Below, piece by piece: positions 5,043 through 36,231 of a stretch of DNA of 64,000 bases. The notes under the pieces are model-generated. The model was not told where the DNA came from and searched no databases. It worked only from the letters and a program-made list of their open reading frames with translations. A program made the position numbers and the translations under genes. The DNA comes from Stenotrophomonas sp. 57 (lineage in GTDB: Bacteria > Pseudomonadota > Gammaproteobacteria > Xanthomonadales > Xanthomonadaceae), in the NCBI RefSeq assembly GCF_030291075.1, contig NZ_CP127407.1, positions 3,904,001-3,968,000 on the forward strand, written 5' to 3'. Each line of letters opens with the position of its first letter. Position 1 is the stretch's first letter.

Positions 5043-6752
5043 CTAGTCATGTTCCTGTAAACGCCGTTCACGTTCGCGCTCTTCTGCGGTAACCACGCAG
5101 GGCACCGTGACCGCCGCCGCCGGTACCAGCCACCAGCGCCGCCGGTTGGCCACGCCGGCCAGTTCAGCGCGGTTGCGATCGATGCACGACAGCATTGCGT
5201 ATTCGTGGACCAGCAGCCAACGGCGTCCGGGCGCCAGCCGCTGCCAGCGCGTGGCGGCTATCAGCTGCTCGTCCCAGGCGGTCTCGAAGCCGAAGGTCGC
5301 CGCGGGGCGGTCGGCCAGCAGCAGATGCTGTTCCTTCCAGGCCACCAGCCCCAGCTCGGCATCCGGGCGCAGGCGTGCTCCGACCGTGCGCATCAGGCCG
5401 CGGGCGGAACTGGAATCGTTCAGCAGGGGGTAGCCGACCAGGCTGTACAGCGCCCATACCATGGCCAGGGTCGACACCAGCGCATGATGCCGGCGACGGC
5501 CGCAGGCCAGCAGGCTCAACCCGCCCCACAGCCCCATCGCCAACAGCGCCCACGCCAATGTATCGGTCGCGCCCGGCGGCAGCCCGCGCCCATGGGCAAG
5601 GCCCACCTCGAAGTGCGGATCACCCAGCAGTGCAAGCGCCCCGGCCAGGCCCAGGCCGATCGCCAGCAGCGCGGTGAACCCTGCCAGGACCGCCTGCACA
5701 TCGCGCCGTTTCAGCAGCCCGGGCAGCAGCGGGGCCAGCGCCAGGCAGAACATCGGCAACGCCGGCAGGATGTAGACATCGCGCTTGCCCTGTGGAATCG
5801 AGAAGAACAGTACGACCAGCCCCCACCAGGCCAGCGGCAGCAGGTAACGGGGGTCGCGGCGGCTCAGGCGCCGGCGCCACGCCGGGATCGCCCATGGCAA
5901 CGCCAGGAACGCCGGTATCCACATCGACGGCATCACGCCGAGGAAATACCACCATGGCTGGTGGTGGTCCCAGGACTGCGTGTAGCGTCGGGCCGTCTGC
6001 CGGAACAGGATGTCGTCGATGTAGGCTCGGTACGCGTCCGAACCGGTACCCCAGCCGGCCAGCAGCATCGGTACCAGCCACAGCGATACCGCCAGCAGGA
6101 AGGCCAGCGGTGCCAGCCAGAAGCGGCCGTCGCGCGCATGCAGGCAGACACGGGGCCAGTGCAGGGCCGCTGCGATGGCAGCCGGCACGATCATCAGCAG
6201 CGCCAGCATGCCCACGCCCTTGGTGATCACCCCGATGCCGGCGAAGAACCAGCCCAGCCACCACCAGCGCCAGGCGGGGCCCAGCAGCAGGTGGCGCAGA
6301 AGGCCATAGTTGGCCAGGGTGATGAACAGCACCAGCAGCGGATCGATCTGCGCCTTCTTCGCCTGGAAGGTGAACTGCAGCGCGAACAGCAGTGCCCATC
6401 CAGCGTAGAGCCCGACCTGGCGCGTCCACAGCCGGCGCCCCAGGTCGACCACGCACCACAGCGTGCCCAGCGCGGCCAGCAGCGAGGGCAGCAGGAAGGC
6501 CACGCGCCAGTGGCCGACCAGGCCGTACAGCGTGGCCTGCCACCACATCAGCATTGGTGGCTTGTCCGAGTAGAGCTCGGTGCCACGGTGCGGGAACAAC
6601 CAGTAACCGCTGTCGACCATCTGCCGGGCCACCAGCGCGAAGCGTGGTTCGTCAGAGGGCCACGGATCGCGGAGACCGAGACCGGCCCCCAGCACCAGCA
6701 GGGCCACCACCACGAACAACCACGTCTGGCGCGACGCGTGGGTTTTCAGCAT
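5043..6752 (-). CDS. ArnT-like glycosyltransferase, family 39
   Basis: A 569-residue inner-membrane GT-C enzyme. The first periplasmic loop carries 'PWPSDEPRFALVARQM' (acidic pair of the GT39/83 active site) and 'YSDKPPMLMWW'. About eleven further hydrophobic segments follow, then a periplasmic C-terminal domain from about residue 440. This is the layout of ArnT, which transfers 4-amino-arabinose from undecaprenyl phosphate to lipid A, and of its relatives that move other sugars. No arnBCA genes are beside it, so the sugar is unknown. It starts 23 nt after rsmB on the same strand and is probably co-transcribed with it. Confidence 0.8.
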   Translation of the reverse strand: MLKTHASRQTWLFVVVALLVLGAGLGLRDPWPSDEPRFALVARQMVDSGYWLFPHRGTELYSDKPPMLMWWQATLYGLVGHWRVAFLLPSLLAALGTLWCVVDLGRRLWTRQVGLYAGWALLFALQFTFQAKKAQIDPLLVLFITLANYGLLRHLLLGPAWRWWWLGWFFAGIGVITKGVGMLALLMIVPAAIAAALHWPRVCLHARDGRFWLAPLAFLLAVSLWLVPMLLAGWGTGSDAYRAYIDDILFRQTARRYTQSWDHHQPWWYFLGVMPSMWIPAFLALPWAIPAWRRRLSRRDPRYLLPLAWWGLVVLFFSIPQGKRDVYILPALPMFCLALAPLLPGLLKRRDVQAVLAGFTALLAIGLGLAGALALLGDPHFEVGLAHGRGLPPGATDTLAWALLAMGLWGGLSLLACGRRRHHALVSTLAMVWALYSLVGYPLLNDSSSARGLMRTVGARLRPDAELGLVAWKEQHLLLADRPAATFGFETAWDEQLIAATRWQRLAPGRRWLLVHEYAMLSCIDRNRAELAGVANRRRWWLVPAAAVTVPCVVTAEERERERRLQEHD

Positions 6753-33784: not shown

Positions 33785-33833
33785 GGCCGGATTATGCCGT
33801 GCTGCACTGCAGCGGATATACTGGCGCCCGAAT

Positions 33834-34032
33834 GCAGGAGAGAGGCGCCGCGCTGGCGCCCGCCGAAGGCGCAGGCTCCCATGATCGCTCAGGCCGGTGG
33901 GCTGGAATCCCACCAACCATGCATTCGACTCGCCGAGCTGGAGAGAGGTCACCGGGCACGCCCGGGACGATCCGCCGAAGGGGCACGCGGCCTACGCCGC
34001 TGAACTCTCAGGCAAAAGGACAGCGGGAGCGG
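33834..34032 (+). ncRNA. Tandem glycine riboswitch
   Basis: Two glycine aptamers in a row. The second (about 33938-34031) is textbook: GGAGAGAG, CGCCGAAGGGGCA, then ACTCTCAGGCAAAAGGACAGCGGGAG. The first (about 33834-33925) has GGAGAGAGGCG, GCCGAAGGCGCA and GCTCAGGC. They are joined by a short linker, as in cooperative glycine riboswitches. A likely -10, TATACT, is at 33817-33822. The regulated gene is the TRIC/UPF0126 membrane protein that starts 84 nt downstream. No clear terminator hairpin with a U-run follows, so control may act on translation. Confidence 0.93.
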
Positions 34033-34115: not shown

Positions 34116-34733
34116 ATGCTGCTGTCCATCATCTACCTGATCGCCATTTCCGCCGAAGCCATGACCGGCGCCCTGGCCGCCGGCCGCCGCCGCATGGACC
34201 TGTTCGGTGTGGTCATGATCGCCTGCGTCACCGCGCTCGGAGGCGGTTCGCTGCGCGACATCCTGCTCGGCCACTATCCGCTGGGCTGGGTGAAGCATCC
34301 CGAGTACCTGGGCTTCACCGTGTGCGCGGCGCTGATCGCCACATGGGTGGCTCGCTGGATGCACCACTTCCGCCGTACCTTCCTGGTGCTCGATGGCCTG
34401 GGCCTCATCGCCTTCACCCTGATCGGCTGCTCGATTGCGCGCGAAGCGGGCCATGCGATGCCGATCGTGCTGATCGCCGGCATGCTGACCGGCGCGTTCG
34501 GCGGCGTGCTGCGCGACATCCTCTGCAACGAGGTGCCGCTGATCTTCCAGAAGGAGCTGTACGCGATCATCGCGTTGCTGACCGGCGCGGCGTACCTGTT
34601 GCTGCTGCACTGGGGCGTGGCCGACGCCACCGCGATCCTGTGCTGCCTGGGCGGCGGCTTCGCGTTGCGCCTGCTGGCGATCCACTACCGCTGGGAAATG
34701 CCGAAGTTCGTGTATCACGACGAAGTGCATTGA
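34116..34733 (+). CDS. TRIC/UPF0126 family membrane protein (YicG/YadS-like)
   Basis: A 205-residue membrane protein with seven hydrophobic helices made of two related triplets. Each triplet carries the family motif: 'ALGGGSLRDILLGHYPL' near residue 43 and 'GAFGGVLRDILCNEVPL' near residue 130. This is the UPF0126/TRIC fold, described as cation channels in some prokaryotes. The glycine riboswitch directly upstream argues for a role in glycine transport or tolerance. I chose ATG 34116, with GGAG about 9 nt upstream, over ATG 34083, which has no ribosome site. Confidence 0.88.
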   Translation: MLLSIIYLIAISAEAMTGALAAGRRRMDLFGVVMIACVTALGGGSLRDILLGHYPLGWVKHPEYLGFTVCAALIATWVARWMHHFRRTFLVLDGLGLIAFTLIGCSIAREAGHAMPIVLIAGMLTGAFGGVLRDILCNEVPLIFQKELYAIIALLTGAAYLLLLHWGVADATAILCCLGGGFALRLLAIHYRWEMPKFVYHDEVH

Positions 34734-34944: not shown

Positions 34945-36018
34945 TCAGGCCGCTTCGGACACCTTCACTTCGCGACGGGCGCGCACGGCCGCAGCCAGTC
35001 GCTCCAGCACCGTCACGGTGGTGTCCCAGTCGATGCAGCCATCGGTGATGCTCTGCCCGTAGACCAGCGGCTGGCCTTCCACCAGTTCCTGGCGGCCACC
35101 CACCAGATGGCTCTCGATCATCACACCCACGATGCGCTGTTCCCCGTCTTCCAACTGAACGGCGATGTCCTCGATCACCTTCGGCTGGTTCTCGGGGTTC
35201 TTCAGGCTGTTGGCGTGGCTGGCGTCGATCATCAGGCGCGTCGGCAACCTGGCCTTGGCCAGTGCCTGGCAGGCCTCGGCCACACTGCCCGCGTCGTAGT
35301 TCGGCTGCTTGCCGCCACGCAGGATCACATGGCAATCCGGGTTGCCGGTGGTCGAAACGATGGCGGTGCCACCCTGCTTAGTCACCGACAGGAAATGATG
35401 CGGATTCGAAGCGGCACCCACCGCGTCGGCGGAGATCTTCACGTTGCCGTCGGTGCCATTCTTGAAGCCGACCGGGCACGACAGCCCCGACGCCAGTTCG
35501 CGATGCACCTGGCTTTCAGTAGTGCGCGCACCAATGGCACCCCATGCCACCAGATCGGCGATGTACTGCGGCGAGATCACGTCAAGGAACTCGACACCGG
35601 CGGGCAGGCCGAGCTTGTTGATGTCGCGCAGCAGGCCACGGGCGATGCGCAGGCCCTTGTCGATCCTGAAGCTGCCATCCAGGTCCGGATCGTTGATCAG
35701 GCCCTTCCAGCCCACCGTGGTGCGCGGCTTCTCGAAGTACACGCGCATGACGATTTCCAGTTCGCCGGCCAGCGCATCGCGCAGCGGCTTCAGGCGCTGT
35801 GCGTACTCGATGGCGGCGTTCGGGTCGTGGATCGAGCACGGGCCCACCACCACGGCCAGGCGGTCATCACGGCCATGCAGGATCTGGTGCAGAGCCGCGC
35901 GCGAGGCGCTGACGGTGTCGGAGGCTTCATCGTCACAGGGCAGCATCGCCAGCAGCTGGGCCGGCGGTGTCAGGGGTTCGATGGTGCGGATACGCAGGTC
36001 GTCGGTGTGCGGGGGCAT
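34945..36018 (-). CDS. aroG: 3-deoxy-7-phosphoheptulonate (DAHP) synthase, class I
   Basis: A 357-residue enzyme that condenses PEP and erythrose 4-phosphate in the first step of aromatic amino acid synthesis. Class I AroG/F/H motifs are all present: 'VVVGPCSIHDPNAAIEYA' with the metal-binding Cys near residue 60, 'MRVYFEKPRTTVGWKGLINDP', 'GARTTESQVHRELASGLS', 'GFKNGTDG', and 'LMIDASHANSLK' with a metal-binding His. Start ATG 36018 has GGAG 10 nt upstream. The 5' region holds a leader peptide rich in aromatic residues and a terminator, so expression is probably attenuated by supply of aromatic aminoacyl-tRNAs. Which of AroF, AroG or AroH it matches by feedback control cannot be told. Confidence 0.95.
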   Translation of the reverse strand: MPPHTDDLRIRTIEPLTPPAQLLAMLPCDDEASDTVSASRAALHQILHGRDDRLAVVVGPCSIHDPNAAIEYAQRLKPLRDALAGELEIVMRVYFEKPRTTVGWKGLINDPDLDGSFRIDKGLRIARGLLRDINKLGLPAGVEFLDVISPQYIADLVAWGAIGARTTESQVHRELASGLSCPVGFKNGTDGNVKISADAVGAASNPHHFLSVTKQGGTAIVSTTGNPDCHVILRGGKQPNYDAGSVAEACQALAKARLPTRLMIDASHANSLKNPENQPKVIEDIAVQLEDGEQRIVGVMIESHLVGGRQELVEGQPLVYGQSITDGCIDWDTTVTVLERLAAAVRARREVKVSEAA

Positions 36019-36064
36019 TGGGGGAGATCTCCGGAACGTTGGGGGTCCCCAGCGTGGCGACATG

Positions 36065-36094
36065 AAAAAAGCCGCCAGGTTCGCTGGCGGCTTT
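36065..36094 (-). terminator. Attenuator (intrinsic terminator) in the aroG leader
   Basis: On the minus strand an 11-bp perfect stem AAAGCCGCCAG / CTGGCGGCTTT with loop CGAAC runs into TTTTTT. It lies 24 nt after the leader-peptide stop and 47 nt before the aroG start. The 5' arm CCGCCAG (36084-36090) can instead pair with CTGGCGG in the leader reading frame (36141-36147), which would form an antiterminator. Confidence 0.85.
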
Positions 36095-36117
36095 CGGGAA
36101 TGCGTCTGAAGCTTTCT

Positions 36118-36195
36118 TCAGGGTGAGCGCAGTCCTTCCTCCGCCAGTGGCTTCGGAAAGTAATACCAGTAAAAGCTGGTGGGGGCTGCGTTCAT
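36118..36195 (-). CDS. Aromatic leader peptide of the aroG attenuator
   Basis: A 25-codon frame starting ATG at 36195 and ending TGA at 36118-36120. Codons 8-13 read Phe-Tyr-Trp-Tyr-Tyr-Phe, i.e. every aromatic amino acid made by the pathway, in an otherwise ordinary peptide. CTGGCGG, which can pair with the terminator's 5' arm, falls in codons 17-19. A ribosome held at the aromatic codons would leave it free, while a ribosome at the stop codon would cover it. There is no good ribosome site. A -10-like TATCAA ends 8 nt before the ATG, so the mRNA may be leaderless. This is the standard logic of trp or phe attenuators; here it is read from sequence only. Confidence 0.82.
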   Translation of the reverse strand: MNAAPTSFYWYYFPKPLAEEGLRSP

Positions 36196-36203
36196 GGGAT
36201 GTA

Positions 36204-36231
36204 TTGATAGCACAGCTTTTGCGCAGTGCAA
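36204..36231 (-). promoter_or_regulatory. Putative promoter of the aroG leader transcript
   Basis: TTGCAC (36231-36226) and TATCAA (36209-36204) with a 16-bp spacer on the minus strand. The predicted transcription start falls at or just before the leader ATG at 36195. Confidence 0.5.

Follow-up and report, generated by a model that had tools for sequence, protein, structure and literature searches.

Attenuation upstream of a DAHP synthase gene has a described precedent in the actinobacterium C. glutamicum, in which the aroR leader, situated ahead of aroF, encodes a Phe-Tyr-Phe run and acts through ribosome stalling (Neshat et al., 2014, as recounted in the review PMC11802643). Limitation for phenylalanine raises transcription in this system (PMC11802643). 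The leader described here, upstream of aroG in Stenotrophomonas sp. 57, shares with aroR an aromatic leader peptide ahead of a DAHP synthase gene, and differs from it in host and in the make-up of the run; the two are likened by their described features. The original prediction knew of no description for this gene. That statement gives way to the C. glutamicum work as regards DAHP synthase, and stands for proteobacterial aroG, for which no leader description was found among the literature matches listed (titles, beginnings of abstracts and term searches), a result that does not prove absence. Term searches of the accessible text found neither aroG nor attenuation in two TSS papers (PMC4842269; PMC4603805), and no aroG in PMC2965389. 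Since attenuation at a DAHP synthase gene is already on record in C. glutamicum, the aroG leader joins a known type of switch, of which it is a new and widespread example.

In the E. coli attenuators trpL, pheL and pheST, a short frame carries the regulatory codons, and antiterminator and terminator are mutually exclusive. The aroG leader resembles them in combining such a frame with hairpins that may compete; unlike them, each of which senses one amino acid, it holds its putative antiterminator segment within the frame and lacks a Shine-Dalgarno word. All three are known attenuators (PMC11802643), and a hypothesis put forward at one time extended attenuation to E. coli aroF (PMC8632094). A leaderless attenuator mRNA, predicted below for the aroG leader, is described for rnTrpL/peTrpL of Sinorhizobium meliloti, whose transcript starts at the AUG and for whose RNA (rnTrpL) and peptide (peTrpL) functions in trans have been reported (PMC10117765); this system differs in sensing tryptophan only and in its position before trpE. 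The uORFC-13-1 motif of Acholeplasma is, like the aroG leader, a candidate uORF with a terminator ahead of a DAHP synthase gene, there aroF. The motif is presented as hypothetical (PMC8632094), and it differs in comprising 24 sequences with at least one Phe codon and in having another structure.

The window analyzed here, a 64-kb (64,000-nucleotide) stretch of the Stenotrophomonas sp. 57 genome, contains aroG on the minus strand at 36018-34945, with its ATG at 36018 and a product of 357 aa. This product scores 532.5 bits against the NCBIfam DAHP synthase model TIGR00034 (cut-off 173.2) and 557.7 against the narrower NCBIfam AroG model NF006723, slightly under the cut-off of 568; its top PDB sequence matches are named Phe-regulated DAHP synthase, and we take it to be a class I-alpha DAHP synthase. 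The same genome encodes a class II DAHP synthase (L218, G000:C1:886198-887502), so aroG is not the sole entry enzyme; inspection by eye of the 400 bases upstream of that gene revealed no aromatic leader. The genome holds another PF00793 match as well. Two tandem glycine riboswitch aptamers (RF00504, 40.1 and 45.5 bits) occupy 33825-34031 on the plus strand, where a frame begins that ends at 34733 and matches PRK10578 below the cut-off.

The leader peptide frame, MNAAPTSFYWYYFPKPLAEEGLRSP, runs for 25 codons on the minus strand (36195-36118), from an ATG at 36195 to a TGA at 36120-36118. Codons 8-13 (36174-36157, minus), which read TTT TAC TGG TAT TAC TTT from 5' to 3', encode Phe-Tyr-Trp-Tyr-Tyr-Phe, the proposed stall site. 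Six successive aromatic codons are found nowhere else in the six frames of the window, and at least six in eight at just two places, where 20 Markov sequences lead one to expect 0.05; the other such cluster is at 6266 on the minus strand. Between leader and aroG stands an intrinsic terminator (36094-36065, minus), consisting of the 11-bp hairpin AAAGCCGCCAG-CGAAC-CTGGCGGCTTT at 36094-36068 and a T run continuing to 36065. The hairpin lies away from the aroG start, ending 49 nt before it, with 46 bases between the T run and the start; a generic terminator scan of the window did not include it among its terminators. Leader frame, aromatic run, a CTGGCGG within the frame, hairpin and aroG are all present where the original prediction had placed them. 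Taken as a whole, the 214-nt leader region folds better than 200 of 200 shuffles (z -3.73).

The proposed leader promoter features an extended -10 box of conserved pattern, TGTGCTATCAAT (36214-36203, minus), with a weak -35-like TTGCAC (36231-36226, minus) across a 16-nt spacer. The pattern TG.TATCA.T is retained at 90% or more across 40 Xanthomonadaceae sequences, and a -10-like word starts 13-15 nt ahead of the leader start codon in 119 of the 139 distinct Xanthomonadales leaders collected below; by a loose pattern, no such word was found in 15 of the 139. A generic sigma-70 scan returned no promoter by its rule anywhere in the 64-kb window, the -10 box included. Shine-Dalgarno-like words at -16 to -4 precede none of the 139 leaders, as opposed to 89 of 139 aroG genes, and outside Xanthomonadales they precede one of 59 leaders versus 44 of 59 aroG genes. 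The absence of a Shine-Dalgarno word, together with a -10-like box that lies a near-fixed ~14 nt ahead of the start, makes it likely that the leader mRNA is leaderless or nearly so, as had been suggested from the single sequence. In the Burkholderia-type leaders inspected, the closest -10-like box lies ~40 nt upstream, and a leaderless start therefore need not apply there.

The leader with its aromatic run, the terminator and a possible alternative pairing are conserved among relatives. Searches at E 0.001 detected AroG in 90 of 91 genus genomes and 99 of 297 family genomes; at E 1e-60, 42 of 200 order genomes and 225 of 398 phylum genomes had a match. Upstream regions were taken for 71 of the 90 genus matches, 66 of 82 further family genomes and 17 of 17 further order genomes; the phylum set, 43 loci from 41 genomes, was picked to span the list and includes several from one genus. 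The rule used defines a leader as a frame 10-60 codons long that packs four or more aromatic residues into eight codons and is followed by a scored terminator. Such a leader is present at 62/62 loci of the genus search, 75/75 of the family search (nine of the 75 from the same genus) and 17/17 of the order, at 21 of the 43 phylum loci, which were chosen outside Xanthomonadales, and at 52 of 79 named GTDB loci, which are the best 80 of 589 less L058, dropped because it had no upstream sequence. All 161 Xanthomonadales aroG loci scanned, a number that includes named loci and near-copies and comes down to 139 distinct leaders, have both leader and terminator, 160 of them with at least five aromatics in eight codons, and not one has the hairpin without the aromatic codons. 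On the other hand, the rule finds nothing in 276 opposite strands and only three cases in 495 random windows, none of these with at least five aromatics.

A terminator score of at least 20 is seen after 187 of 196 candidate leaders versus 5 of 318 control stretches. In the terminator, 99.5% of cells remain paired and the covariation score exceeds that of 500/500 shuffles; in Xanthomonadaceae, box, leader, terminator and gene follow one another in the same order at near-constant spacing. The interpretation of this region as an attenuator is upheld by the 161 loci and by controls near zero; attenuation at aroG is strongly supported by the comparison of relatives.

The 27 negatives of the named GTDB set include seven Enterobacterales and two Vibrionaceae loci. 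They also include L071 and the Chloroflexota bin L065, in both of which an aromatic frame and a hairpin are visible by eye, the hairpins being imperfect or without a T run; AroG of L065 is preceded by an aromatic leader beginning MSRYFSFFSWYGYF... and by a GC-rich hairpin that lacks a clear T run. G622 and G389 each encode two AroG copies, of which just one has a leader by rule (L243 and L279) and the other does not (L277 and L280). A quick tree of 85 AroG proteins groups the alphaproteobacterial with the Xanthomonadales enzymes (SH-aLRT 96), and the leader label changes 11 times on it, a count that is approximate because L023 and L065 were scored as lacking the label despite a visible leader.

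As to the alternative pairing, the original prediction calls for refinement. It had CTGGCGG within the leader frame (segment 2, the 5' end of the antiterminator; 36147-36141, minus) compete with the terminator for CCGCCAG. Such a pairing is possible by sequence and by energy; its outer bases are not conserved, and a longer hairpin is the probable form. Folding from CTGGCGG to the 5' arm of the terminator predicts a composite hairpin (36147-36084, minus) in which CTGGCGG, GGA, TGCG and CTGAAG pair with CTTCAG, CGCA, TCC and CCGCCAG, and the inner part of which spans the leader stop codon. GGCGG is present in 136 of 139 leaders, and 129 of these have it 20 nt ahead of the stop codon. The GGCGG:CCGCC core is nearly invariant, and 19 of 40 sequences break one outer pair of CTGGCGG:CCGCCAG. 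With so little variation in the core, covariation cannot test its pairing; none is seen in the 40 sequences, and shuffles score as well. Of the hairpins proposed for a covariation check in relatives, then, the terminator covaries and the antiterminator core does not. In a swap test on the 81 leaders of 187 that are non-redundant, cognate core pairs hold no clear advantage over exchanged partners (+0.05 and -0.46 kcal/mol), and in just 23 of the 81 does the core pairing surpass 99 or more of 100 shuffles.

The energies of the composite hairpin depend on where the ribosome sits. Its median is -24.9 kcal/mol, versus -18.4 for the terminator, over 136 leaders (the three of 139 without GGCGG were dropped), and weakens to -9.7 kcal/mol when a ribosome occupies the stop codon; the composite hairpin is the stabler of the two in 134/136 leaders with the ribosome upstream and in 0/136 with the ribosome on the stop. 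Double-changed cells number 26, as compared with 15.7 in shuffles (0/500 as high), and a slide of the alignment by one column gives 29, above the unslid value. Against shuffles the stability of its interior is modest (median z -0.88 over 24 representatives). The antiterminator probably extends beyond CTGGCGG:CCGCCAG and is the composite hairpin that takes in the leader stop codon. A 1:2 protector hairpin (TTTCC..GCC with GGC..GGAAGG) was also considered and set aside, its covariation being no better than that of shuffles (186/500); 91.3% of its cells are paired, a level reached by 3/500 shuffles.

In the full transcript at equilibrium, the terminator dominates in all three ribosome states, the antiterminator taking a share of 0.024 with the ribosome stalled, 0.002 with it at the stop and 0.008 with no ribosome. 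The switch would therefore have to be kinetic; other attenuators likewise decide kinetically. Before the 3' arm is made, and with pairing allowed behind the ribosome, the corresponding values are 0.84 stalled, 0.64-0.71 at the stop and 0.69 without a ribosome. Omitting the RNA behind the ribosome yields a clear contrast, 0.85 versus 0.30, which depends on that omission; simple folding models of a switch set by ribosome position thus disagree with one another.

We regard it as highly probable that the aroG leader controls transcription as a ribosome-mediated attenuator, gauging how fully tRNAPhe, tRNATyr and tRNATrp are charged. Transcription would begin at the leader AUG or a few bases from it, assuming that the proposed promoter is used, and a ribosome would follow RNA polymerase along the leader, translating it. 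With charged aromatic tRNAs in ample supply, the ribosome would reach the stop codon and break the composite hairpin there, the terminator would form, and an RNA of ~130 nt would be left. When any of the three charged tRNAs is scarce, the ribosome would instead stall in the aromatic run, and CTGGCGG together with the stop-codon stem would pair with CCGCCAG ahead of synthesis of the 3' arm. With the terminator pre-empted, aroG would be transcribed; the folding order and the shift in readthrough are part of the model.

Which of the three amino acids matter is a question on which the codons themselves bear. Phe, Tyr and Trp are all present in 138 of the 139 distinct Xanthomonadales leaders; among 59 distinct leaders outside that order, Phe and Tyr occur in all and Trp in 40. 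Within Xanthomonadales, Phe is encoded by TTT at 306 of 358 leader positions versus 6 of 223 in the aroG genes collected for the group, and Tyr by TAT at 139 of 407 versus 15 of 225, a large contrast for which formal p-values are nonetheless too small owing to kinship. The use of rare codons where stalling is proposed would account for the preference, and so would a requirement for little structure. It is a real if somewhat doubtful possibility that the attenuator effectively senses only one or two of the amino acids, probably Phe and perhaps Tyr, with the others as passengers. The 19 of 59 leaders without Trp would fit such a sensor, as would the codon bias, which is strongest for Phe, and C. 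glutamicum aroR, which, according to the review, answers Phe limitation and not Tyr availability (PMC11802643). The retention of all three residues in 138 of 139 Xanthomonadales leaders argues against it, and the leader most likely functions as a three-amino-acid sensor for aroG.

A second alternative, that the region is a translation-independent RNA fold, riboswitch or protein-bound, with an open frame there by chance, draws on the strong structure (z -3.73) and on a pairing of the first with the last leader codons that shows some covariation (20 double-changed cells versus 11.8 in shuffles, 2/500 as high). We consider it very improbable, given how the run varies. Where run codons depart from the column consensus, 55 of 73 are still aromatic and 29 of 73 differ in the third position only (38 of 40 non-redundant leaders, those that could be anchored on Trp), whereas we estimate that random single-base changes would retain an aromatic residue in about a quarter of cases. 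By this comparison the aromatic run is preserved as peptide more than as bases, and it is from this coding constraint that we infer translation of the leader. At gathering thresholds, moreover, no Rfam family, riboswitch or T-box, matches 36018-36231. Least credible of all is a hairpin that merely terminates an upstream transcript, with an aroG promoter of its own between 36064 and 36018, for although 46 bases are available there and the promoter scan of the whole 64-kb stretch listed no promoter at all, the near-constant order and spacing of box, leader, terminator and gene in Xanthomonadaceae speak against it, as does the little room in L197, L198 and L184, where the hairpin ends 22-24 nt before aroG.

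Attenuation by the aroG leader may bear on observations already in the literature. In R. solanacearum, aroG1 and aroG2 reporters rise ~10- to 20-fold upon deletion of the other gene and are slightly lowered by added Phe (PMC6379268); the words leader and attenuation are absent from the main text of that paper. Ralstonia aroG is absent among the 60 listed of 470 plasmid-collection records. A putative leader of the aroG type could explain the reporter rise, which fits attenuation. A bolder proposal, by analogy with rnTrpL/peTrpL, is that a leaderless three-tRNA attenuator is the old and main control of such DAHP synthases in Xanthomonadales, many Burkholderiales and several Rhizobiales, and that the ~130-nt RNA and the aromatic peptide act in trans as well; we think this unlikely. 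For several large groups of Proteobacteria, the aroG leader offers a testable account of how entry into aromatic amino acid synthesis is controlled; it also supplies a natural sensor whose one short sequence may respond to all three aromatic amino acids.
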